DNA of 31,859 bases from a virus. Of this stretch, positions 3,507 to 20,980 are shown in pieces. The position numbers were made by a program, and so were the translations under genes. The stretch lies in IMG/VR virus record IMGVR_UViG_3300005523_000007, positions 1 to 31,859 of that record. One strand, 5' to 3'. Under the pieces are notes generated by a model. The model saw only the letters and a program-made list of their open reading frames with translations. It was not told where the DNA came from and ran no database searches. Position 1 is the first letter of the stretch; the number at the start of each line of letters is the position of its first letter.

Positions 3507-4508
3507 TTACTGATATATTCTAATATTATCTCCTCTCTTTAAGGTGCTGTTCCTATACTGGGCAGCACCTATTTTATATGGCATGATAGTAGCAATATCA
3601 TCTTGAACGATGCGTAAATAATCTGGTTTTAGAATTAATATATTTCTTTTTTTCTCTTCTTCTATAGATTCGTATTCGTAGTTTGTTATTGGTGTAAGTA
3701 AATCTGTTGATGATATCGTAGAATATTCCTCTAAAATCTCATCAAAAAACTCAAAGTAGAATGAATTTCCAGACCCAATAATATCATAAACAGTGAATAA
3801 CACTTCCTCTCTATTAGAGGTGCTCATCACAGGATTCAGTACTGTGGGAACAGTATCGAGTTCATATGTGAAGGAAATAACCGATCCACTAATAGAAGTA
3901 GTACCAGTTACAACAAATTTACCATTATATACAGACTCAGATACATTTTGAACATTAACTTGATCACCAACAGTGAGATTGCTGATGCCATTATTCATTG
4001 TGATGGTAACAACTCCATCGGAGTTAGAAAAAATCTGAGAGATTTTATTATTTGATATTTGTATAAAGTTACCGTTTGTTCTCCATGTATTTGGAGATCT
4101 TAAACCGCCAGGTAGAACTATCGCACCAGAAGAATCCTTAATTTCTTTAGTTTCATAGTGATGAATATCAGAATATAATTTTTCGTAAGTGCCATATTTT
4201 TTTAACATGACCTCATCAAATACTTGTTGTGGTAATGGCCACTCAGATTGTACATTTAGTATGTTATTAGCAAGTAAAATAACCCAATCTAATGTAGAGT
4301 CTTCATAAAACTTAAATGCGACATTATCGGGTCTTTCATCTCCCTTAATTGAGTATTTTTCAAAAAGAGATAAATTTCCAAAAATATCATCTCTCAACTT
4401 TCCTCTTTTGAAAAGATTTTTTACTGGGGTAAAATTTGATATTCCTTTACTGTCATCGTCTCTTGAGACGTATTCAAAATCCGGAACTTGTCTGAAGTAT
4501 GATGCCAT
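3507..4508 (-). CDS. 53: gp53 baseplate wedge protein with inserted beta module
   Basis: 333 residues against 196 in T4. The N-terminal 110 residues carry the gp53 pattern: SYFRQVPDFEYVSRD, then FEKYSIKGDERPDNVAFKFYEDSTLDWVILLANNI, which is the LysM-like part of gp53. The C-terminus TNYEYESIEEEKKRNILILKPDYL is also typical. In between, about residues 152-235, sits a beta-rich module (VTITMNNGISNLTVGDQVNV, YNGKFVVTG) that resembles modules of the large fibre protein at 24109-29919. In T4, gp53 joins neighbouring wedges so that six close into the baseplate. It is the last gene of the minus-strand operon, 1 nt after gene 48, and its stop abuts gene 32's stop. Confidence 0.9.
   Translation of the reverse strand: MASYFRQVPDFEYVSRDDDSKGISNFTPVKNLFKRGKLRDDIFGNLSLFEKYSIKGDERPDNVAFKFYEDSTLDWVILLANNILNVQSEWPLPQQVFDEVMLKKYGTYEKLYSDIHHYETKEIKDSSGAIVLPGGLRSPNTWRTNGNFIQISNNKISQIFSNSDGVVTITMNNGISNLTVGDQVNVQNVSESVYNGKFVVTGTTSISGSVISFTYELDTVPTVLNPVMSTSNREEVLFTVYDIIGSGNSFYFEFFDEILEEYSTISSTDLLTPITNYEYESIEEEKKRNILILKPDYLRIVQDDIATIMPYKIGAAQYRNSTLKRGDNIRIYQ
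3542..3570 (+). terminator. Stem-loop 36 nt after gene 32, inside gene 53
   Basis: AGGTGCTG at 3542-3549 pairs perfectly with CAGCACCT at 3563-3570 (8 bp, 13-nt loop), followed by ATTTTAT. It is the best candidate terminator for gene 32 transcripts. It lies within the last codons of the convergent gene 53, where it encodes the GAAQYRNSTL segment. The U-rich tract is short and interrupted, so termination strength is uncertain; RNA 3'-end stabilisation is an alternative role. Confidence 0.5.
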
Positions 4509-6303: not shown

Positions 6304-6743
6304 TTGATACCCAGTTCGTCTTCTGTGATAATCTTAAATTCTAATTTTCTGTCATCACACCATTCTTTCGCCGCTTTCCATTTTGCCTGATTAACGGCAT
6401 AAGTTTTCATTTCATATAAGTATGATTTTGTTTGCCTCTTTGGTTTTTTAGGTGGAGAACATTGTTTTTTGGGTTTCACTTCAATGACGTATGTTTTTAT
6501 CTTACCGTCTTTTTCTTTAACCTTTATTAAATAATCTGGAAAATATCTATGAACGCGATTATCTATTGGCGAAATATATCCGATGCAAAATTCTTCTGAT
6601 GCCCATGAAATTATGTTTTCATTGTGATCACACCAATAAGAAAATTTTCTTTCCCAACTACTTCTACAAATTATATTATTTGGATCTCCCTTATATTTCT
6701 CTGGATACGATGGTTTATAGATGCTTTTAATACTTTCTGCCAT
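6300..6743 (-). CDS. 4: gp4 head completion protein (TnsA/PD-(D/E)XK fold)
   Basis: 147 residues (T4 gp4: 150). The pattern YKPSYPEKYKGDPNNIICRSSWERKF, then WASEEFCIGYISPIDNRVHRYFPDYL and YVIEVKPKKQ, is the T4 gp4/gp50-65 family. It keeps a full nuclease-like triad: E31, D70 and E88-x-K90, as in TnsA and other PD-(D/E)XK enzymes. In T4 the protein is needed after packaging to finish the head so that tails can join; an endonuclease role in trimming DNA ends is plausible but unproven. It is the first gene of the minus-strand operon, with a TATAAATA late promoter 33 nt upstream, divergent from gene 54. Confidence 0.92.
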   Translation of the reverse strand: MAESIKSIYKPSYPEKYKGDPNNIICRSSWERKFSYWCDHNENIISWASEEFCIGYISPIDNRVHRYFPDYLIKVKEKDGKIKTYVIEVKPKKQCSPPKKPKRQTKSYLYEMKTYAVNQAKWKAAKEWCDDRKLEFKIITEDELGIK

Positions 6744-7785: not shown

Positions 7786-8505
7786 ATGCCTTTACCGAAA
7801 ATTGCTACACCAACATATGAATTGGTTTTGCCTTCTACTGAGCAAAAAGTAAAATACAGACCATTTCTTGTTAAAGAAGAAAAACTTCTTGTCATTGCAC
7901 TAGAATCTGAAGACACAAAACAAATTACTAATGCAATTAAATCGGTTATTAAAAATTGCATTTTAACAAGAGGAATTAAAGTAGAGTCTTTGCCGACTTT
8001 TGATATTGAATATTTGTTTTTAAATATTAGGGGGAAATCTGTTGGAGAGGTAATCGATGTTAATATCATTTGCCCCGATGACGGTGAAACAACTGTTCCA
8101 ATTCAAATCAATGTTGATGAAATTCAGGTTGTGAAGAGTGATGATCATGATACAAAAATAAAATTAGATGATAGTCTAATGATGCAAATGAAATACCCAT
8201 CATTGGATCAATTCATTAAGAGTAATTTTGATTTTACAGATGACAATGCTATGGAGCAATCTTTTGAACTGGTTGCTGCCTGTGTAGATCAAATCTTCAA
8301 TGAAGAAGAAGCGTGGTCTACTGCTGATGTGACAAAGAAAGAATTGTTAGATTTCTTGGATCAAATGAACACATCGCAATTTAAACAAGTTGAAAAGTTC
8401 TTTGAGACAATGCCAAAACTTTCACATAAAGTTATGGTAAAAAATCCAGAAACAAATGTAGAAAGTGAGGTAGTTTTGGAGGGTCTGTCGAGTTTTTTCG
8501 CATAG
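7786..8505 (+). CDS. 26: gp26-like protein, candidate tail assembly chaperone
   Basis: 239 residues (T4 gp26: 208). The start MPLPKIATPTYELVLPSTEQKVKYRPFLVKEEKLL is the recognisable gp26-type opening, followed by DIEYLFLNIRGKSVGE and a metal-site-like ICPDDGE strand. The C-terminal half is helical. In T4, gp26 is needed for hub assembly. Here the gene sits exactly where other long-tailed phages keep a tail assembly chaperone: just before a small frame and the tape-measure gene. The gene ends in TCG AGT TTT TTC GCA TAG, which holds a -1 slippery heptamer (see 8493-8529). Slippage would make a 302-residue fusion with the next frame. gp26-type identity is fairly sure; the chaperone role is inference from architecture. 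Confidence 0.78.
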   Translation: MPLPKIATPTYELVLPSTEQKVKYRPFLVKEEKLLVIALESEDTKQITNAIKSVIKNCILTRGIKVESLPTFDIEYLFLNIRGKSVGEVIDVNIICPDDGETTVPIQINVDEIQVVKSDDHDTKIKLDDSLMMQMKYPSLDQFIKSNFDFTDDNAMEQSFELVAACVDQIFNEEEAWSTADVTKKELLDFLDQMNTSQFKQVEKFFETMPKLSHKVMVKNPETNVESEVVLEGLSSFFA

Positions 8506-8529
8506 GCATGGTTCATATGGACCTGCCTA
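8493..8529 (+). promoter_or_regulatory. Candidate programmed -1 frameshift cassette
   Basis: The heptamer T_TTT_TTC (8493-8499) is in the zero frame of the gp26-like gene, 3 nt before its TAG stop (8503-8505). It is followed by a hairpin: bases 8503-8508 pair with 8524-8529, 8509 is bulged, and 8510-8514 pair with 8519-8523 including one G-U, closing on an ATAT loop (11 bp in all). The G-C core begins 5 nt after the heptamer. A -1 slip continues at CGC ATA GGC ATG directly into the frame of 8508-8693, which has been open since base 8469. Confidence 0.7.
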
Positions 8530-8693
8530 ATTATTTCCGCCTTAATTTTTCGTTAATGCAGTACCATAAATATTCATTGACTGAAATTGAAAATATGATA
8601 CCTTGGGAGAGAGACGTATATGTCGAACTTCTCAGGCAACACATAGAGGAAGAAGAGTACAAACAACAGCAGAATGCCAACAACAAGTACTAG
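8508..8693 (+). CDS. Small frame after gp26, probable frameshift extension of the chaperone
   Basis: 61 residues if started at ATG 8508, with another ATG at 8517. The sequence is FSLMQYHKYSLTEIENMIPWERDVYVELLRQHIEEEE, a pattern of aromatic residues followed by an acidic helix that resembles the T part of GT-type tail assembly chaperones. No clear ribosome-binding site precedes the ATG, whereas the frame is in register with a -1 slip on T_TTT_TTC at 8493-8499; the fusion would be 238 + 64 = 302 residues. Its 3' end overlaps the tape-measure start by 20 nt. T4 gp51, a hub assembly factor, could be a functional counterpart, but I cannot show homology. Independent translation by coupling to the upstream stop is possible. 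Confidence 0.72.
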   Translation: MVHMDLPNYFRLNFSLMQYHKYSLTEIENMIPWERDVYVELLRQHIEEEEYKQQQNANNKY

Positions 8694-10977
8694 AGAACAA
8701 ATAGATGAAAGAATTCTAAGAATAATCGGTCTCGAAGACTATGAAGTCGAGATGGATTATTCTACTTATAAAAGTGCTATTAAAGAGTTCTTATCTGCTG
8801 TAGATAGAGGAAAGAAAGTAGATAGTGGAGAAGTTGAATTAGTATCAACAGAGTTTAAAAGAATAAAAAGGAAGCAAGGTAGATTTAGAGTAGAACCAAA
8901 AAAGACAAAGATATCTGCAGAATCACTAGGTATTGGTGGTATTAAAAAACAGACTGGGGCAGTACAAGGAAGATTGATGCTTCCCCCTGGTGGAGGCGGT
9001 GCGCTTGCTAAAACAAACGTCGATGCAATATCAAAAGAAGATGTAGGAGAAAATCCTTTAATCACTATTAGTAAGACTCTTGATTCGATATTAGCAACTT
9101 TAGTTAAGATTGCTGATCAAAGCAAAGACTCTGCAGAAGCAGAAAGAAAAAAAGCAGAGCAGGATAAGAGAAAGAAGAGGGAACTTGGATTAGAATCAAA
9201 AGTATTTGAAGGACTTAAAAAAGCAGTATCGACTGTAACAAAACCATTTCAAAGTATTTTTGATAAAATAATTAAATTTATTATGTTTACTTTGATCGGA
9301 AGAGCAGTAGTTAAACTGTTTGATTGGTTTAGTGATAAAAAGAATAAGGATAAGATACAAAGCATCTTCAGATTCCTTAAGGATAAGTGGCCACTTCTCT
9401 TAGCACTGTATTTAAGATTTGGAACAGGATTCGGAAGATTTATTGGCACACTAACAAATCTTTTAATAAAAGGTGCGGTAAAACTTTCGATCGTTATTGC
9501 AAAACTTTTAGCAGCAAAGAAAGTAGCAGGTGCTAGACGTATTGCTAGTTTCCTTAGCGGTGGAAAAGGAAAACTTTTAACTGGCGCTTTAAGTATTGGT
9601 GCCACTGCTTTAACTGTAGGGGCAACCTCAAATGCAATTAGTAATTTTGGAGGAGTAGATCCAGAACCATCCCAATCTGGATCTGAAAAACCACCAACGC
9701 CAAAATTTAATGGTGGTGGTTTGATGAACATTGGGAGAATGTTCAGTGGTCTTGTAAAAGGACCTAAAGGAAAAGACAAAGTTCCTGCAATGCTTACTGA
9801 CGGGGAATTTGTGATGTCGAATGGTGCTGTTGAGAGATATGGAGTTGACACTTTAGAGTCAATGAATGCGGCAGGTGGCGGAACTAATATCCCAGAAATA
9901 TCAATGGAAGGTGTGACTTATGCTTCTGGTGGTGGATATATTGGAGAAGATGCTGGTAAGGAAAGGGTAAGAGATCCATTACTTATTAAGAATTCTAGAA
10001 TTGATGCAACAAAAATATCATCTAGTCCTGTTACGAGTCCTAGTAGTTCAGTTGATTTAAATGCAAATGTAGGAGATTTCGATATTGATGTAAGAGTGTC
10101 TGAGTTAATGAAGAGTACCAGTTCTGGTAAAATTGCAAATTACGATAAAGAGTATGGAAGAGGTGCATATGAAAGAAAACTTCGCCAGAAATTGGAAAAA
10201 ATTTACTCTTCATCAAATAAATCAGATTTATCTCTGCCACCTGATATAAAAACCACAGGTCCACTTCTGGGTAGGATGGCGATGAATCTTCCTATTCCTG
10301 GCATGAGTGGAGGTGGCGGCGGCACTAATGCTTTGACAAATCAGGCAAAAGTTAGATCTATTCCTGGTATGCTTAGTAGTTTATTTGATTCTTTTAGAAA
10401 AAAAGAGATTGATACACAGACTATTCTTGAGGAAGTAAAATCCAGAGCAAAGAGTATGGCAACATCCATGGGTGGAACGGTTAAGGATGGAAATATAGGA
10501 ACACCAACAGCACAAGAACAAAAAGACTTTGATACTCTTGCTGCAAGCAAAGCAAAACTAAAGGGTTCCTCCTTTATGGGAACACCTAAACAAGATGATT
10601 CTGCATTGAGAGCAGAATATTTGGCAATACAAGACGATCCACATCACCCACTCCATACAAAAGTGAGAGGTGGATATGATGTTGATGATTTTGGAATGTC
10701 TTTTTCTGAATTTAAGAGATTTAAAAAAGGACCACAAGTGCAGTCTGCTGCAACAACATCCCCGACAAAACATTTATCTTCTTCTAATCAAAAAAAATCC
10801 GCGCCAAAGATTACTCCGATTCCGATGGCAAAACCAGAAACTTATGCTGCAAAAATGGGTCGGAGACAGAAAAATAAGCGTGGTAGTGGAGCGAGAGGAC
10901 AAACGGCACCAAGTCCTTCACCTACTCATAGCAGTGGAACTTCATTGGCACAGGCAACACTGGGAGTTAAGCGATAA
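8674..10977 (+). CDS. Probable tape-measure protein (virion structural)
   Basis: 767 residues. The first 175 residues are charged and helical (many Lys/Glu, coiled-coil-like). Two hydrophobic stretches follow near residues 199-219 (IIKFIMFTLIGRAVVKLFDWF) and 240-262. A glycine-rich linker leads to VPAMLTDGEFVMSNGAVERYG (about residues 365-387), the short motif often found in tape-measure proteins. The C-terminal 350 residues are low-complexity and Ser/Pro/Lys-rich. Placement straight after the chaperone pair is the usual place of a tape measure. By the rule of thumb of about 1.5 angstrom per residue, 767 residues would set a tail of roughly 115 nm. T4's own tape measure, gp29, is not recognisable here. 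The stop overlaps the next start by 1 nt (TAATG). Confidence 0.68.
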   Translation: MPTTSTREQIDERILRIIGLEDYEVEMDYSTYKSAIKEFLSAVDRGKKVDSGEVELVSTEFKRIKRKQGRFRVEPKKTKISAESLGIGGIKKQTGAVQGRLMLPPGGGGALAKTNVDAISKEDVGENPLITISKTLDSILATLVKIADQSKDSAEAERKKAEQDKRKKRELGLESKVFEGLKKAVSTVTKPFQSIFDKIIKFIMFTLIGRAVVKLFDWFSDKKNKDKIQSIFRFLKDKWPLLLALYLRFGTGFGRFIGTLTNLLIKGAVKLSIVIAKLLAAKKVAGARRIASFLSGGKGKLLTGALSIGATALTVGATSNAISNFGGVDPEPSQSGSEKPPTPKFNGGGLMNIGRMFSGLVKGPKGKDKVPAMLTDGEFVMSNGAVERYGVDTLESMNAAGGGTNIPEISMEGVTYASGGGYIGEDAGKERVRDPLLIKNSRIDATKISSSPVTSPSSSVDLNANVGDFDIDVRVSELMKSTSSGKIANYDKEYGRGAYERKLRQKLEKIYSSSNKSDLSLPPDIKTTGPLLGRMAMNLPIPGMSGGGGGTNALTNQAKVRSIPGMLSSLFDSFRKKEIDTQTILEEVKSRAKSMATSMGGTVKDGNIGTPTAQEQKDFDTLAASKAKLKGSSFMGTPKQDDSALRAEYLAIQDDPHHPLHTKVRGGYDVDDFGMSFSEFKRFKKGPQVQSAATTSPTKHLSSSNQKKSAPKITPIPMAKPETYAAKMGRRQKNKRGSGARGQTAPSPSPTHSSGTSLAQATLGVKR

Positions 10978-13900
10978 TGGCAAATCTAATTCCATATGGA
11001 AAGGGCGAGTCATCAATCGTCAAACCAAAAACTAATATTTCTAAAGCACTTGTTAAAATATCAAAAGTAAAAAGTGATGGAGGTAAAATTGTTAAGAGTT
11101 CTAATATTAATATTTTAGAATCAATTAAACAAAAAGTAATTTCTGTCGATACTATTTTAAAAAGTTCTTTTTTAACAAAAAAGAAGATACAGGAAAAAGA
11201 TAGAAAGGATGAAGAGAAAGAAGAATTTAAAGCAAGAGAAAAGGCACTAGAAAAGAATAAACCGAAAGATGTTAAGGGCGTCAAAGTGCCAGCAGCACCC
11301 AAACTCGGGTTGTTTGGGTGGATAAAAAGATTCCTTTTTAACACTCTTTTAGGGATTATTGCAGTAAAGTTATTACCTGTTGTACCAGATTTACTAAAGA
11401 TATTTCCTAAGATTGTCTCTGCTGGAGAATTCATTATGAATATCTCTGGAAAACTTTTGGATGGATTTGTAACTTTTGTTGATTGGGGATATAAAGCACT
11501 TGACGGAACAAAAGAATTTTTAAAGAATGTTGGTGGTGAGGGACTAGCAGAGAATTTTGATAAGTTCACTGGTTTAATGGGTACGTTAATTGATGTAGCG
11601 ATAGTGACTGCTATCGCAACTGCATCTTCGGGTGGTGGTGGTGATGGTCCTGGAATTGGTGATGGACTTGGTAAGAAATTAGGCGGAAAGATAACTGGAA
11701 CTCTAGCAAAAGGAGGTAAACTCACTGTTGCTGGAACTGCCTCTGTAGTTGCTGGAGCAGGATTACTCGCATCTGCTTTAGGTGAGGGTGCTTTCCAACT
11801 TAGAGGTAAGGGTAAGGAAATAGAAGAGGGTGCTAAAAAGAATTACGAAAAACACAAAGATAAATGGAAAATAGATCCAAGAAGAGCTTTTAGTTGGGCA
11901 GTTTTTCAAGCATCAAGATTTGCTAATACAAGTCTAAGCTTTACTGGATTTTTACTTGACCTTGTTGGTGCTCCCTTTAGATATGCAATAGAACTTCTTC
12001 GTTTTCCTTTCTTAAGTGAAAAGGATAAAGAAAAGCAAGCAAATAATCTTGCTAAATTTGATGCAAGAATTCGTGAAGATGTAAGAAAAGCACTGAATAT
12101 GTTGACTTTGGGTCTTGCATTCAAAGAAAAAGGTTCTTTCGGAAATATTTTTGGTAATGACAAATCTCAAAAAGAGATGATGAGTAAGATGGCGGGCGGT
12201 GGTAAACCTGCTACTAGAGGTGGAAAAGTTGTTGGTGGGAAAGCAAAAAGGTCTATAAAAACTAGACAACAACCACAAAAAATTCTAGTATCCCAACCAA
12301 AAGTTAATCCAGGAAAATCTATTGGTGGCGAAAAAGTAGTCAAATCAATATATCCAGATACTTTAGATAAAAATAACAAAAAAGCAAGTGTGTATGATGT
12401 TCTTGTAGAAACTCACGACCAATACAGAAAATCAGGAAATCTTGGTTCTCTAATTGCTTTGGGACTCAAAACAATATTAGGGGACAAACCATCTAAAGCA
12501 GACTACGATGGTGCTGGTGCTGGTCTCAATAACTGGATGAATAAATCGATCGCATCTGGTAGACTTGAGTATTTTGGTGGTGGTCAAGTTGACTTGGCAA
12601 GCATCTCTTCGGGAGGAAATTATAGCAAAACACTTTCACAATCTATTGAGAGAAACATATCAAAAGAAGTCAATAAAGCTATCAAGAACTTTAAAGATCG
12701 ATTGATTAAAATAGATCCTTCATCTAAAAATCGTGACTTAGAGGATAGACATAAACAAACTGGTTTGAAACCATCAGAAATTAGTGGTGCTGATTTGAAT
12801 TTAACACAAAAGCAAGCATTTGCGACGGTGTATGAATTGGCAAAGAAATATAATGCAAAATATCCTGAGATTGTTGCTGCTCAGGCAATGCATGAGACTG
12901 GATATATGGATCCTAATCTATCCAGTGTTTTCAATTCCACTGGAAGGACAAACGCATTTGGTCAAACTGGTGATAGAGGTTATGGTACGATAGTACGATC
13001 AGGTGACTCTAATGGATGGACCAAGTACCCGACTTTAGATAAAGCAGTTGAAGATAATATAAAATTATGGCATAGAGTTGATAATCATCCCCAAAACTAT
13101 GAGGCATTTGAAACTCCCATAGAAGGAATCTTAGCAGTTGTCGGTAAATATTCTCCAAATACAGATCCTGCCAATATTGCACGGGGTTTTAGTGAAAAAT
13201 CTTATGTTGGAGCAATGCAAAAAATTATGAAGAGTATGGGATTTGATCCATACAAGAAAAATGAGATTAGCGATTTAAGTAGTGATGCTAAGTTAAAAGC
13301 AGTCAATCCTCTAATGGCAAAGAAAGTTACTCCTACTGATGTCACTCCTGTTGATGTCTCTGGTGCTAATGTTGGTGGCGGAGAGGGAGAAGGTGGAGTT
13401 AAAATTGCTGGTGATCTTGGAGATTTTATGAAAGCAAACAGGGGTAATATCGGAGTTACTGGCAGTGTCCACCAACACCCAAGACATCCTGGTCAATTCA
13501 AGAGATCTTATTTTTCTTATCATAATCAAAATAGAGCACTTGATATTGGTGGATATTCTCCTACACACCCAAAAAATCCCAACGGGCAAGATGAACAAGC
13601 ACCAGTAATCAAAGCATTGTTAGAATGGAACAAGAAAAATGGATATAGTCCGATAGAAATTATTCACGGTTCTCCTGCATACGCCAATTTAGGAACATTT
13701 GAATCGCAGGGTTCAGCACTTCATGCAGATCACGTCCACGTTGCATACAACAAAGGAGGACGTATTTCTGAACCAACCTTCGCTTTAATTGGTGAGAAGA
13801 AACCAGAATTTATCTTCGATGGTGACACTACAGAAGCAATGGATAAACTTGCACCTGGAATGTTAGAACAACTGCTTGTGGCAAAAACTAAACCACAAGT

Positions 13901-14075
13901 AGATTCGATCCTACAGTCTTATATGAACTACAGTTCTCCTTATGGTGGACAACAAATTGTTGAAGTTCCTGTAGAAGTAGAAGTTGAAGTTCCTGTTCCA
14001 ATTCCAATGAGTTCTATGCAATCTTCCGGTGGCGGAGGTATAGATAATAAGTATGAAACTCTATCAATAATATAA
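10977..14075 (+). CDS. Tape-measure-like hub protein with two putative cell-wall hydrolase domains
   Basis: 1032 residues. The N-terminus is basic, then WIKRFLFNTLLGIIAVKL resembles the hydrophobic stretch of the preceding protein, followed by further apolar helices to about residue 370. Residues 605-755 look like a glucosaminidase domain: LTQKQAFATVYELAKKYN, then IVAAQAMHETG with candidate catalytic E640. Residues 835-925 look like an M15-type peptidase: SYHNQNRALDIGG (H849, D856) and HADHVHV (H916, H919, H921), the spacing of the M15 zinc site. Then GGRISEPTFALIGEKKPEFIF, a typical tape-measure tail motif, and a Val/Glu/Pro repeat (VEVPVEVEVEVPVPIP). It probably cuts peptidoglycan during injection, replacing the lysozyme of T4 gp5. 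Domain calls are by motif only. Confidence 0.7.
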   Translation: MANLIPYGKGESSIVKPKTNISKALVKISKVKSDGGKIVKSSNINILESIKQKVISVDTILKSSFLTKKKIQEKDRKDEEKEEFKAREKALEKNKPKDVKGVKVPAAPKLGLFGWIKRFLFNTLLGIIAVKLLPVVPDLLKIFPKIVSAGEFIMNISGKLLDGFVTFVDWGYKALDGTKEFLKNVGGEGLAENFDKFTGLMGTLIDVAIVTAIATASSGGGGDGPGIGDGLGKKLGGKITGTLAKGGKLTVAGTASVVAGAGLLASALGEGAFQLRGKGKEIEEGAKKNYEKHKDKWKIDPRRAFSWAVFQASRFANTSLSFTGFLLDLVGAPFRYAIELLRFPFLSEKDKEKQANNLAKFDARIREDVRKALNMLTLGLAFKEKGSFGNIFGNDKSQKEMMSKMAGGGKPATRGGKVVGGKAKRSIKTRQQPQKILVSQPKVNPGKSIGGEKVVKSIYPDTLDKNNKKASVYDVLVETHDQYRKSGNLGSLIALGLKTILGDKPSKADYDGAGAGLNNWMNKSIASGRLEYFGGGQVDLASISSGGNYSKTLSQSIERNISKEVNKAIKNFKDRLIKIDPSSKNRDLEDRHKQTGLKPSEISGADLNLTQKQAFATVYELAKKYNAKYPEIVAAQAMHETGYMDPNLSSVFNSTGRTNAFGQTGDRGYGTIVRSGDSNGWTKYPTLDKAVEDNIKLWHRVDNHPQNYEAFETPIEGILAVVGKYSPNTDPANIARGFSEKSYVGAMQKIMKSMGFDPYKKNEISDLSSDAKLKAVNPLMAKKVTPTDVTPVDVSGANVGGGEGEGGVKIAGDLGDFMKANRGNIGVTGSVHQHPRHPGQFKRSYFSYHNQNRALDIGGYSPTHPKNPNGQDEQAPVIKALLEWNKKNGYSPIEIIHGSPAYANLGTFESQGSALHADHVHVAYNKGGRISEPTFALIGEKKPEFIFDGDTTEAMDKLAPGMLEQLLVAKTKPQVDSILQSYMNYSSPYGGQQIVEVPVEVEVEVPVPIPMSSMQSSGGGGIDNKYETLSII

Positions 14076-15424: not shown

Positions 15425-15652
15425 ATGGAAAGCATCGAATCCCATATCAAAAAGGATAAGGAGATCCTTGAAGATCCTACAACCAATCCACAAATGCGTC
15501 GTCACATTGAGGGCGAATTGCATGATCTGGAAGAATATGTAGAGCATCATAAAAAGGAGATTGAACAAGGCGATCATCATGACCCAACTTATCTTGAACT
15601 CTTTTGTGATCAAAATCCATCTGAACCCGAATGTTTAATTTACGATGATTGA
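15425..15652 (+). CDS. CP12-like small protein
   Basis: 75 residues, very acidic. The C-terminal end LELFCDQNPSEPECLIYDD matches the GAPDH-binding end of CP12: two cysteines eight residues apart, N-P between them and a closing E-C-x-x-Y-D-D. The N-terminal cysteine pair of full CP12 is missing; instead there is a helical, His/Glu-rich region (RRHIEGELHDLEEYVEHHKKEIE). CP12 holds GAPDH and phosphoribulokinase in an inactive complex and so shuts the Calvin cycle. Cyanophages are known to carry CP12 homologues, thought to push carbon to the pentose phosphate pathway. Here the gene lies inside the baseplate operon after its own late-type promoter. It supports a cyanobacterial host. An unrelated structural role is possible. 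Confidence 0.65.
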   Translation: MESIESHIKKDKEILEDPTTNPQMRRHIEGELHDLEEYVEHHKKEIEQGDHHDPTYLELFCDQNPSEPECLIYDD

Positions 15653-15654
15653 TT

Positions 15655-17562
15655 ATGTCTGATGTAACTACCGGAACTGCTTTTAATCCTCAATTCTTCA
15701 TGAATCCACCTTGGTGGATGGGAAGAGTTGAGGATAAAGAAGTTTGGACCGATAACATCCAAGGATCAACTTTTACAGGTGTCTCAGATATAAAAGGTTG
15801 GGGACATAGGTATAAAGTAAGAGTTTTCAACTGGCATACAGGAGACACTGAAGACCTCCAACCAGAAGAAATTGCAATGTGTCAGGTTTTAATGCCTGTC
15901 ACAGCAGGTTCTGGTCATGGAGGAGCATCTATAACACCATCGATAGAGTCCGGATCTGTTGTATTCGGATTCTTTATGGATGGAATGGCAGGACAAGAAG
16001 GATATATTTTAGGAGTTCTAGGCAATTCAAACAACAACTGCCCCAAGGAGAGAGGAGAACCTGCCCCCAATCAAACAAAAACCAACGTTGAACCTGGACC
16101 CGATGGAAAACCACAGGTAACACAATCAAAACCACCTACCCCACCAACTGGTCCTGGAAGTGCAGCGAATCAACCACTTCCACCAAAGGTAGATGATTTA
16201 AGTGTGAATCAACTTAAAAAACTTTTAGATCCATCTAAAACACCATCAAGAGAAGTTTTTAAAGCAGCATCAGAAGCTAGACAAAAAGCAAAGGCACAAG
16301 GCAAATCTCCTAAAGAAATTGAAAGACTAGTTTTACTTGCGACAGTAAAAGAATCTAGAAAATCTGGTTCTGATGCGGGCGGAAATGCCAATTGTAATAA
16401 AGGATATCAACAATTTAATAACACGTATTCGGATGGTCAAGAAGAAACTTCTGCAAAAGTTCCAGACAATCTAAGGTATAGCACAGGACCACTTTCTACG
16501 ACAGAAGCATTCCACGTAAAAGTAAAGTCCACTGATGATTTGAAAAGAGATGGGAAAGTAAAAATTCCTCTACTTGATGTATCTAAAGAAAACAATAGTT
16601 CTACTACTGGAATATCAAAATCTATTTCAAATTTAGTTAATACTGTTGAAGATCTTAAAAAAACTTACAATCAAGTATCTGCATTTGCGACAGATTCATT
16701 AGAATTTGTAGATGAAATTCAAAAGGAAATTTCTGGAGTTACAAAAGAAATTTCCGGATTCACCAAAAATATGATAGCAGGAGTCAGATCATACACTTAT
16801 GATAGACTAGCAAAAGAAGCCAGAACTGCTGCTTCAAATCTATTCCCATCAGAAGTTCCAAAGTTTTTCCAAGGTGTAGAAGGTGCTATGTCTGGAATAG
16901 CATGTGGATTCAATAAAATTGTTGGGCAACTTGGAGATATAATTGGTGGGTTGCTTAAAGATATGTTGGATAAAGTTATAAGCACCCCTCTATGTGCAGC
17001 AGAACAATTCTTATCTAAGATACTGGATAATATTATGGATAAGATGACAGGTTTGTTAGATGGTATTTTTGGAAAATTAAAATCACTTCTCGGTGGCATT
17101 ATGGGTCTCATTTCTGGTCCCATGGATGCGATTGGAGGTTTATTTGGAAACATCTTTGATGCACTCGATTACGTCGCTGGAATTGCAGAATTCTTTACTT
17201 GCGATGAACCTGAAGAACCTGTAAAATATACAGAGATATCTCTAGATGGTCCTGCTGTTCCTGGTGGTGATGCTGCTGCAACTCCAACAGAAGACGGTGG
17301 GGCACCAGTCGGAACAGGAGATCCAACCGCATCTAAAGCAAACATAGTCAATAATGTAACAAGCACTGCTCCTACACCAGATCCAAATGATCGATCATTA
17401 GAAGCAACTCTTGCAAGAGAAGAAGCGGGATTGAATGCTGCATTGGAAAAAGAAGCACAGGCAGCAAAGGAAGATCAAAACAATATAGATAATCCTACAA
17501 CAGATCAATTTAGAGAAGCGGTTAAGAGAGGAGATAGTGATGTTACTGGACTTGAATTTTAA
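15655..17562 (+). CDS. 5: gp5-like baseplate hub protein without lysozyme domain
   Basis: 635 residues. Residues 1-125 form the gp5 OB-fold: PWWMGRVEDKEVWTDNIQGSTF, YKVRVFNWHTGDTEDL, IESGSVVFGFFMDGMAGQEGYILGVLGN. A Pro/Gly linker and a helical Lys/Ala segment follow, then a long stretch (about 340-500) of amphipathic, glycine-spaced helices (GGLLKDMLDKV, DKMTGLLDGIFGKLKSLLGG) and an acidic end. I see no lysozyme domain and no triple-stranded beta-needle, both of which belong to T4 gp5. The needle seems to be a separate gene (18948) and the lytic domains lie in 10977-14075. I start at ATG 15655 rather than the in-frame TTG at 15649. It should sit on the gp27-like ring. Confidence 0.8.
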   Translation: MSDVTTGTAFNPQFFMNPPWWMGRVEDKEVWTDNIQGSTFTGVSDIKGWGHRYKVRVFNWHTGDTEDLQPEEIAMCQVLMPVTAGSGHGGASITPSIESGSVVFGFFMDGMAGQEGYILGVLGNSNNNCPKERGEPAPNQTKTNVEPGPDGKPQVTQSKPPTPPTGPGSAANQPLPPKVDDLSVNQLKKLLDPSKTPSREVFKAASEARQKAKAQGKSPKEIERLVLLATVKESRKSGSDAGGNANCNKGYQQFNNTYSDGQEETSAKVPDNLRYSTGPLSTTEAFHVKVKSTDDLKRDGKVKIPLLDVSKENNSSTTGISKSISNLVNTVEDLKKTYNQVSAFATDSLEFVDEIQKEISGVTKEISGFTKNMIAGVRSYTYDRLAKEARTAASNLFPSEVPKFFQGVEGAMSGIACGFNKIVGQLGDIIGGLLKDMLDKVISTPLCAAEQFLSKILDNIMDKMTGLLDGIFGKLKSLLGGIMGLISGPMDAIGGLFGNIFDALDYVAGIAEFFTCDEPEEPVKYTEISLDGPAVPGGDAAATPTEDGGAPVGTGDPTASKANIVNNVTSTAPTPDPNDRSLEATLAREEAGLNAALEKEAQAAKEDQNNIDNPTTDQFREAVKRGDSDVTGLEF

Positions 17563-17575
17563 GGGGGATTAAAAT

Positions 17576-18946
17576 ATGTTTTCTAAGGAAATACCATTCG
17601 ATTCTGCAATTAAAGTATCATTTTTCGATAAGGATGGTACGAAGGTAAATGGAATAAGTATCGAGCAAGCAAATAAAGTTCATGAACTCGATCCAGATAC
17701 TTTATTCTATTTCAAAACTGGTGATGGAACAGAAAAAGAACTAACAATAGAAGAAGTTCGCGAATTACCAAACAAAAAGAATATTTTACCATCTAAACCT
17801 TGCGATACCGGACCAAAAGAATGTGGACCTCCACTTGTTAGATTTTTTGGCGGTGGTGGATTTGGTGCAGCAGCAAATGCTATCATCAGTCCAATATCAT
17901 CTTCCGTAATTGGATTTGATATTGTAAACCGTGGAAAGAAATATAAAACTCCTCCAAATGCGGAACTTGTTGATCCATGCGGAAAAGGAAGTGGATCTAG
18001 TGTAGTCGTAACTATTGATGAGGATGAAAACAGTCCCGACTTTGGTAAAATTGACGATGTAATTGTTATTGCTCCTGGAGATGGGTATATTCCTGCTCCA
18101 GATGGTAGTTTGGGTGGAAATGATAGGGTTTGGAAAGAACCAGACGAAGGTTGGTGTGAAACCCCTGAAGGTGGATATTGTGTTGTTCAACCATATAGAC
18201 CAATAAAATTACCGGGAGGTAGTACATATCATCCTCCCGATGGACCACCAAGAATTATACGTGAGGGGGGAGAATTAATTACAATAGATTTGGTTCCAGT
18301 TAAACCACCAGATGAAGAAGAAGAGAAAAAGACTTCAGATCCAAAGGAACCAACGGATTTAATAAGCACTGGACCTACCCCCCGTCGTTCCGGAGGAATT
18401 ACTCCCCCACCTGGCGGTGGTAAGACACCTGTCAGCAATTCTTCAACCCCTATTCCCGATCCCACTAAACCTGGACTTGGTGATGGAACTGGTGACGGTA
18501 CTGGCACTGGAACTGGTACTGGTACTGGTACTGGAAGAGGGGAATCTGAAGGTGCATTTAAAAAACCATCATCATCTTATCCAGTTTACTTATGTCTGGT
18601 TAAATTTAGGGTCATTGATCCTGGATTTGGTTATAGACCAGGAGATAAATTAATTGTTAGTCCAAATTTAGGAGTAGAAACTGAACTAATTGTAAATGAA
18701 TTTGGACAAGTTACTGAAGCAAGGGTAATTAAAAAAGGATGTGGTTTTGTTGATATACCAAAAATTAGAACCAATTCTTCTACAGGATTTAATGCGACTT
18801 TCGTTCCCATCTTCAGCACACAAAGATTATCGGATGCTGAAAAACAAGCATTCACCATTGAGGAAGGAGTGGGTATCGTCGATGTTGTCGATTGTGTAGG
18901 TATAGTCCCACCAAAACAAGTATTTGATATAGTACCGAGGTATTAA
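17576..18946 (+). CDS. Glycine/proline-rich virion structural protein
   Basis: 456 residues, not matched to a T4 protein. It has a strong ribosome-binding site (AAGGGGGA). Two copies of a beta module occur: IGFDIVNRGKKYKTPPNAEL with VIVIAPGDGYIP (about residues 107-180), and FRVIDPGFGYRPGDKLIV with EARVIKKGCGFVDIP (about 343-400). This 'G-x-GY' module is common in phage tail proteins and also appears in the big fibre protein of this window. Between them lies a disordered, Pro/Gly/Thr-rich linker with the (GT)n run at 18479-18535. Between the gp5-like and needle genes, it is likely part of the baseplate centre or spike; this is inference. It is predicted non-enzymatic. Confidence 0.65.
   Translation: MFSKEIPFDSAIKVSFFDKDGTKVNGISIEQANKVHELDPDTLFYFKTGDGTEKELTIEEVRELPNKKNILPSKPCDTGPKECGPPLVRFFGGGGFGAAANAIISPISSSVIGFDIVNRGKKYKTPPNAELVDPCGKGSGSSVVVTIDEDENSPDFGKIDDVIVIAPGDGYIPAPDGSLGGNDRVWKEPDEGWCETPEGGYCVVQPYRPIKLPGGSTYHPPDGPPRIIREGGELITIDLVPVKPPDEEEEKKTSDPKEPTDLISTGPTPRRSGGITPPPGGGKTPVSNSSTPIPDPTKPGLGDGTGDGTGTGTGTGTGTGRGESEGAFKKPSSSYPVYLCLVKFRVIDPGFGYRPGDKLIVSPNLGVETELIVNEFGQVTEARVIKKGCGFVDIPKIRTNSSTGFNATFVPIFSTQRLSDAEKQAFTIEEGVGIVDVVDCVGIVPPKQVFDIVPRY
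18479..18535 (+). repeat. In-frame hexanucleotide repeat coding Gly-Thr
   Basis: About nine tandem copies of a GGTACT-like hexamer (variants GGTGAT, GGAACT, GGTGAC, GGCACT), encoding DGTGDGTGTGTGTGTGTG in the linker of the structural protein at 17576-18946. The last copies are almost identical. Six-base units keep the frame when copy number changes. Confidence 0.85.
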
Positions 18947-19546: not shown

Positions 19547-20359
19547 ATGTCATCGTTTAGCGATTCAGAATATATTAATCAGTTATTTGTTGCCAAAGAT
19601 GAAGTTAAACCAGAACTTTTTGGTAGAGGTCCAATAAAAATTAACGGAAGTACATATCTCCAATGTCCTGTCTTAGCAGGAAAGGATGATACCTTTGCAA
19701 CTATTGTTGCGACTGTTATGATTGGTCCTTTAGAGAATAGTGATTCTCCAGATCCCATAGTTGGAGGTGCTATTCCTGCATGTAGTCCTTCTCAAAATTC
19801 TCCATACTCACTAGCGGTTAGTGGACCATCTGTTCTTCTTGGACCACTTGACGTTGATAATACGGTTAGTGCTACCGGAGATGTTCAAGCAGGAGGAAAT
19901 ATTATTGCTGTTGGTGATGTAAAATCTCAATGTGGTGGTCATATTCTATCCGCTAAGAAAAATTTTGATATACCTCATCCATCAAAAGAAGGGTGGAGAT
20001 TGAGACATACTTGTCCTGAAGGACCTTCTAATGATGTTTATTGTAGAGGTAGAGTAAGAAAAACGGAGATTGATTTACCATCTTATTGGAAAGATTTTGT
20101 TGATTTTGAATCAATTACGGTCAATTTAACTCCTATCGGATCGCATCAACATGTTATAATTAAGAGGATCGATGATGAAAAAGTATATCTTCAATCTAAT
20201 GGAGGTATGCCAATCGATTGTTTTTACCATATTTTTGCTGAAAGAAAAGATGGTGAGAAGTTAATTCCAGAGTATCAAGGAGAAACACCATCAGATTACC
20301 CCGGAAACAATAAAGAATATTCTGTTTCTGGATACCATTATGACGTAAAGGAGAATTGA
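19547..20359 (+). CDS. Structural protein with C-terminal FDIPHP domain, copy 1
   Basis: 270 residues. The first 130 residues are beta-rich (INGSTYLQCPVLAGKDDTFATIVATVMIGPL; SGPSVLLGPLDVDNTVSATGDVQAGGNI). The C-terminal 130 residues carry a conserved domain: KNFDIPHPSKEGWRLRHTC, PEGPSNDVYCRGRV, EIDLPSYWKDFVDFESITVNLTPIG, and FAERKDGEKLIPEY. The domain recurs in the next gene and, as I recall, in fibre-like proteins of many viruses; no enzyme activity is known to me. A ribosome-binding site (AAGAGGA) precedes the ATG, 2 nt after the needle gene's stop. The context argues for a baseplate-tip or short-fibre role. Confidence 0.65.
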   Translation: MSSFSDSEYINQLFVAKDEVKPELFGRGPIKINGSTYLQCPVLAGKDDTFATIVATVMIGPLENSDSPDPIVGGAIPACSPSQNSPYSLAVSGPSVLLGPLDVDNTVSATGDVQAGGNIIAVGDVKSQCGGHILSAKKNFDIPHPSKEGWRLRHTCPEGPSNDVYCRGRVRKTEIDLPSYWKDFVDFESITVNLTPIGSHQHVIIKRIDDEKVYLQSNGGMPIDCFYHIFAERKDGEKLIPEYQGETPSDYPGNNKEYSVSGYHYDVKEN

Positions 20360-20362
20360 TAG

Positions 20363-20980
20363 ATGACCACATTACCAACAGAACCCGCTAATCCTAGAGG
20401 CGGTAAAAATTGTGGCGATGCTGTAACAGGAACACCCCATCCCAATTTTGATTATCTTTCCAGAACTACAACGGGAGATGATGTTTATCCTGATGATGCA
20501 TGCCCAAGATACCTTCAAGTAAAGGGTAAGTTTGATGATCTTCAAGTTACTAATACAGTAACGGCATCAGAAGTTTCCGCTGGTGGAATCACACTTACCT
20601 CTAGAAAGTCGTTTGATATCCCACATCCAGTTAAAAAAGGATATCGTTTGAGACATGTTTGTCTTGAAGGTCCAGAAGCAGGTGTTTATCATAGGGGAAG
20701 AATTACAAACAGTAATGTTATTGAACTTCCCGAATATTGGAGAGGTCTTGTTGATCCAGAAACAATTAGTGTGTCTTTAACTCAAATTAACACATCGCAA
20801 GATTTAATTGTTGAAGGAATTGAGTGGGGCACCAGAATTAAAATTAAATCAGGTAACGGAACAAATATTGATTGTTACTATCTTGTCCATGCAGAGCGAA
20901 AGGATGGTGAGAGACTTATCGTTGAGTATGAAGGAGAAAATTATCCAGGAGATGACAGTCAATATAGTTTGAACCGTTGA
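20363..20980 (+). CDS. Structural protein with C-terminal FDIPHP domain, copy 2
   Basis: 205 residues, paralogue of the preceding gene. The shared domain reads KSFDIPHPVKKGYRLRHVC, LEGPEAGVYHRGRI, VIELPEYWRGLVDPETISVSLT and HAERKDGERLIVEYEGE. The N-terminus is shorter and different (NCGDAVTGTPHPNFDYLSRTT; YLQVKGKFDDLQVTNTVTASEVSAGGI), ending in a short beta-repeat. It begins 3 nt after copy 1 with a good ribosome-binding site (AAAGGAG). The stop codon lies inside the -35 box of a sigma70 promoter, which marks the end of the late operon. Probably both copies are exposed particle components. Confidence 0.65.
   Translation: MTTLPTEPANPRGGKNCGDAVTGTPHPNFDYLSRTTTGDDVYPDDACPRYLQVKGKFDDLQVTNTVTASEVSAGGITLTSRKSFDIPHPVKKGYRLRHVCLEGPEAGVYHRGRITNSNVIELPEYWRGLVDPETISVSLTQINTSQDLIVEGIEWGTRIKIKSGNGTNIDCYYLVHAERKDGERLIVEYEGENYPGDDSQYSLNR

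Follow-up and report, generated by a model that had tools for sequence, protein, structure and literature searches.

A conserved site for programmed -1 frameshifting predicted at the gp26-like/gp51-like junction of a marine T4-like phage

Phage lambda reportedly makes its tail chaperones G and GT by a -1 frameshift, in work attributed to Xu, Hendrix and Duda in 2004. The lambda heptamer is G_GGA_AAG, unlike the T_TTT_TTC considered here. The -1 signal of E. coli dnaX combines a Shine-Dalgarno (SD)-like element, located ~10 nt before the heptamer A_AAA_AAG, with the slippery heptamer itself and a downstream stem-loop. The tail chaperone genes of T4-like phages were published in 2022 by Vladimirov, Gautam and Davidson (Virology 566:9-15, as cited in PMC10885494 and PMC12846349). 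In the citation given by the PRFect paper (PMC10885494), some T4-like phages have a short gene and a longer fused gene with no frameshift, and the 2025 paper on phage Adele (PMC12846349) credits the same work with poly-T slippery sequences in T4-like TAC-N genes. Frameshifted chaperones in T4-like phages, of which a sequence-only reading of the DNA studied here knew no earlier description, are therefore not a new idea, and going by these two citing papers the outline of the central idea counts as published. What may be added to this prior work is the SD-like element and the extent of conservation reported below.

The DNA analysed is a 31,859-nt viral stretch (IMG/VR record IMGVR_UViG_3300005523_000007, positions 1 to 31,859), hereafter the window; the features at the junction are collected in Table 1. 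The 3' end of the gp26-like gene reads GAG GGT CTG TCG AGT TTT TTC GCA TAG, which places T_TTT_TTC in frame, 3 nt (one codon) before the stop. The -1 frame enters the small downstream ORF without a stop, reading ...SSFF-RIGMVHMDL... and remaining open until the stop at 8691-8693, and the predicted -1 fusion product is 302 aa in all. The ORF at 8508-8693 is the portion of this extension downstream of a Met codon, and its ATG has no SD sequence at normal spacing. What the sequence-only reading had said of the heptamer, the two frames and the start of the small ORF was borne out. The end of the extension overlaps the presumed tape measure gene by 20 nt. Bare TTTTTTC is neither rare nor enriched in the AT-rich window (15 found, ~20 expected), so the case rests on comparison with relatives.

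Table 1. Features at the frameshift junction and in the following gene, in window coordinates.
Feature	Position	Strand	Evidence or remark
TAC-N gene, gp26-like putative short tail assembly chaperone, 239 aa	7786..8505	+	PF12322 E 2.9e-73, phrog_150 E 7e-79
GGAGGG, putative SD-like stimulator	8478..8483	+	9 nt upstream of heptamer
Slippery heptamer T_TTT_TTC, predicted -1 slip	8493..8499	+	
0-frame stop TAG ending short form	8503..8505	+	
Bulged stem-loop, 11 bp	8503..8529	+	begins 3 nt past heptamer
-1 frame extension, gp51-like C-terminal domain	8499..8693	+	phrog_634 E 1.6e-26 for 8508-8693; gap-free alignment from slip codon
Probable tape measure protein, 767 aa, expected client	8674..10977	+	phrog_35029 E 2.8e-111 (unknown function)

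Relatives were gathered from viral contigs using the window, S-PM2, Cr30, LPCS28 and C48C1 proteins, together with annotated phages, and the junction was readable in 205 homologous loci. An in-frame T_TTT_TTN lies 0-3 codons upstream of the stop in 201 of these, and all 201 have an open -1 frame reaching at least 164 nt downstream of that stop. It is this fixed phase and position of the heptamer that goes beyond chance. Both the heptamer and the frame relation are shared by cyanophages and by phages of Methylophilales, Caulobacter, Sinorhizobium/Rhizobium/Agrobacterium, Stenotrophomonas, Vibrio, Aeromonas and Cronobacter. The +1 frame, inspected as an alternative in distant phages, is closed by stops. 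The four loci lacking the heptamer belong to two Ackermannviridae and two Vibrio phages that form one clade in the tree. The junctions of this Ackermannviridae-like clade (L096 at ~3980-4005, L097 at ~3970-3995, L086 at ~6700-6720 and L090 at ~6705-6725) keep the -1 extension but read ATTTTC, GTTTTC, CTTTTC or CTTTTT where the heptamer would be; on inspection of the early -1 frame of one member, Serratia 3M (L097), no ATG was seen.

For codon-level comparison we used 110 representatives sharing <90% nucleotide identity (mean pairwise 59%); all were picked from slip-bearing loci, so that the unbiased figure for conservation is the 201 of 205 given above. Within this set the slippery heptamer is conserved codon by codon, in the correct phase for an X_XXY_YYZ site. 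The TTT codon is present in 110/110, and so is the preceding wobble T, which is carried by six different codons encoding Ser, Asn, Asp, Ala or Gly. The second slip codon is TTC in 97, TTT in 11 and TTG in 2. Other Phe-Phe pairs in these genes (n=98) are mostly TTC-TTT (65), with TTT-TTC accounting for 8. Starting at the slip codon, the peptide read from the open -1 frame is itself conserved, with extensions of 56-68 aa. On this comparison of relatives the programmed -1 frameshift reading is supported, and the junction is almost certainly a real programmed -1 frameshift site, a strongly supported one, in a marine T4-like phage.

Upstream of the heptamer lies an SD-like GGAGGG that the sequence-only reading had missed. 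Pairing with the anti-SD across the 110 representatives gives a single sharp peak upstream of the heptamer, with a mean of ~-6 kcal/mol. The observed pairing (-6.19) compares with -5.07 +/- 0.15 under synonymous recoding and was stronger in 200/200 trials, and Gly is encoded by GGG in 29% of cases at the element versus 5% elsewhere. Judged by codon choice, the element is conserved beyond coding need in relatives. Its spacing, 9 nt from the heptamer and ~24 nt from the ATG at 8508, fits slippage stimulation and not initiation.

The 11-bp bulged hairpin proposed to follow the heptamer is real in the window, where TAGGCA.GGTTC-ATAT-GGACC.TGCCTA, with one bulge, has a folding energy of -15 kcal/mol (z -2.87), a value reached by 3 of 200 dinucleotide shuffles. 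Its outer part, however, is for the most part found in the window alone. The inner 5 bp form in 30-43 of the 44 members of the clade, with some double changes; among the six outer pairs, two form in just 1-2 of the 44 and three more in 22-30. When the junction is aligned across relatives, therefore, the heptamer and its frame relation persist but the 11-bp hairpin as such does not. Downstream stems differ from lineage to lineage, with no hairpin conserved in register across lineages, and RNAalifold found no common structure across the representatives, so we do not claim a single conserved hairpin or pseudoknot. The 45 nt downstream of the heptamer have a mean folding z of -1.44, while control stretches average -0.26 (p 5e-16, a value that overstates independence because the representatives share ancestry). 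As sequence, the site thus carries an SD-like element and enriched downstream folding, the latter lineage-specific.

The small neighbour had been proposed as a possible gp51 counterpart, and this holds: by phrog_634 and the collinear alignment, the extension shares homology with the C-terminal part of T4 gp51. The short form matches PF12322 (Table 1), as do T4 gp26 (E 8.8e-64) and T4 gp51 (E 3.9e-52), and hhalign of the window N domain against the gp51 profile gives a probability of 96.6. T4 gp51 consists of an N domain and a C-terminal domain, and the 302-aa fusion is collinear with it, with no gap at the joint. By these profile matches T4 gp26 and gp51 are paralogues within one family, PF12322.

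Directly behind the chaperone gene lies the presumed tape measure gene. Its product gives several weak tape-measure family matches (best E 2.3e-4), and the gene lies close to where Caulobacter phage Cr30 has its annotated tape measure gene. The AlphaFold model of the short form (pLDDT 85.6) has one match of useful probability in the PDB, the HK97 tail assembly chaperone 2ob9 (2ob9_B, probability 0.84, rmsd 2.7 over 62 columns), at an E of 0.79 that is not significant alone; among viral models it resembles baseplate hub chaperones and subunits of myophages. Among PDB sequences, profile searching turned up no credible relative, and for the T4-like gp51 model no fold match in the PDB was meaningful. 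From the modelled match, the gene position and the literature we infer membership of the tail-chaperone fold, and the position before a probable tape measure protein together with the short/long design point to a tail assembly chaperone role. The weak similarity to the HK97 protein and the annotation of cyanophage gp26 as a baseplate hub subunit would also suit a real frameshift whose products are not tape-measure chaperones but, for example, structural hub subunits. We regard this as unlikely given the gene order, the short/long isoform pattern, the HK97 chaperone as the one PDB match of useful probability and the literature assignment of chaperone genes in T4-like phages, as cited in PMC10885494 and PMC12846349.

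Other genes of the window also drew attention. In a 1032-aa tail-cluster protein (10977-14075) a glucosaminidase domain (PF01832) stays below threshold, scoring E 3.5e-6 and 28.1 bits where the cutoff is 30.2. The adjacent ORFs 15649-17562, with a TTG start, and 17576-18946 hit the N and C portions of one hub/tail-lysozyme family (phrog_1922), which suggests that a gp5-like gene is split here. The neighbours 19547-20359 and 20363-20980 both match phrog_17490 and phrog_28536, an apparent tandem duplication.

Databases annotate the junction as two genes, and the small ORF could in principle start at the ATG at 8508, independently or by termination-reinitiation, with the heptamer a relic of Ser-Phe-Phe coding. 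The window ATG lies 2 nt past the TAG, stop and ATG overlap (TAATG or TGATG) in several relatives, and such overlaps are also seen in XF4, D504 and K469, members of the Ackermannviridae-like clade that lacks the heptamer. Two separate proteins are nevertheless hard to reconcile with the relatives at large. No ATG, GTG or TTG occurs in the first 14 codons of the extension in 21 of the 110 representatives, and no ATG in 36. Of the 74 extensions that do have an ATG, 5 carry an SD motif ahead of it, compared with 65 of 102 for the gene's own start. The extension aligns gap-free across the joint in the 110 representatives, so that its conservation begins upstream of the ATG; the codon choice of the heptamer is invariant; and the SD-like element is spaced for the heptamer and not for the ATG. 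In LPCS28, CC2 and Serratia 3M the extension region carries no annotated gene. We therefore consider it very unlikely that separate starts account for this junction. In 74 of the 110 relatives, among them the window, the extension has an ATG close to its beginning, so that a small protein could also be made separately, in addition to the fusion.

Transcriptional slippage on the T run, yielding mixed mRNAs of which some encode the fusion, might be entertained for relatives with up to 8 T (GAT TTT TTT TAA in C48C1), but it is highly improbable because the run in the window and most relatives is just 6 T followed by C, shorter than such slippage usually needs, and because the X_XXY_YYZ phase is fixed and SD-like and stem elements flank the run.

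We propose that the gp26-like gene encodes a short tail assembly chaperone (TAC-N, with a role like that of lambda gpG), and that some ribosomes, a minority, would be held up between anti-SD pairing at the upstream GGAGGG and the stem-loop ahead, slip by -1 on T_TTT_TTC, bypass the TAG and enter the -1 frame. The slip would yield the 302-aa long form (TAC-NC, with a role like that of gpGT), whose extra domain is the counterpart of the T4 gp51 C-terminus, and both forms would coat the neighbouring tape measure protein and deliver it as the tail is assembled. We think it very probable, from the sequence comparisons, that a single gene serves the tape measure in this way through a short form and a minority slip product. 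In T4 and its close relatives the short form instead has its own gene (26), and a fused gene (51) encodes the long one.

The paralogy of gp26 and gp51 sets two genes in T4 against one gene plus a slip here. Genes 26 and 51 are divergently oriented in T4, Aes508, SFHK24, phiP4-3 and KARL-1, and in the tree gp26 forms one clade (100/98) and gp51 another (100/100), both apart from the frameshifting lineages. T4 gp26 ends ...EFFELL, its Phe-Phe retained as the non-slippery TTC TTT, and Krischvirus has TTC CTT at the corresponding position; the slippery word is thus absent where a separate long gene exists. The frameshift layout is kept in the other Straboviridae LPCS28, CC2 and Va3. In RB43 (L101, 4001-4744) a gp51-like gene lies on the same strand directly behind a series of genes, unlike the divergent layout of 26 and 51 in T4. 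The direction from frameshift to two genes is our inference from an unrooted tree. A tentative scenario, to which we give somewhat less than even weight, is that most T4-superfamily chaperone genes use an old dnaX-like three-part signal, its SD-like element and slippery codons (T_TTT_TTN) retained and its stem-loop swapped by lineage, and that in T4 and its closest relatives a gene duplication took the place of recoding and gave genes 26 and 51. This duplication scenario, like the upstream SD-like element, may be unreported so far.

These results would correct many marine T4-like genome annotations, which either enter the second product as an independent 'baseplate hub assembly catalyst' or miss it. 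They reveal the counterparts of T4 genes 26 and 51 in other phages and also offer a natural comparison of two ways of making short and long chaperone forms, by recoding in most lineages and by two genes in T4 and close relatives. Among the closest known systems is T4 gp26/gp51, of the same PF12322 family and short/long design and with gp51 collinear to the -1 fusion; the two T4 forms come from separate divergent genes without a slippery site, whereas this phage has one gene and a predicted -1 slip. The Vandenendeviridae/Andersonviridae locus (phage Adele, PMC12846349) likewise has a conserved poly-T slippery motif at the end of TAC-N and an open -1 frame, a likeness of motif and frame in different phage families with a different motif (GTTTTT). 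Lambda G/GT is alike in design: its short and long chaperones also arise by a -1 slip close to the end of the first gene, and the locus sits just ahead of the tape measure gene. The dnaX signal of E. coli has the same three-part layout as the window site; there the frameshift shortens the protein, whereas the slip on T_TTT_TTC would extend it.
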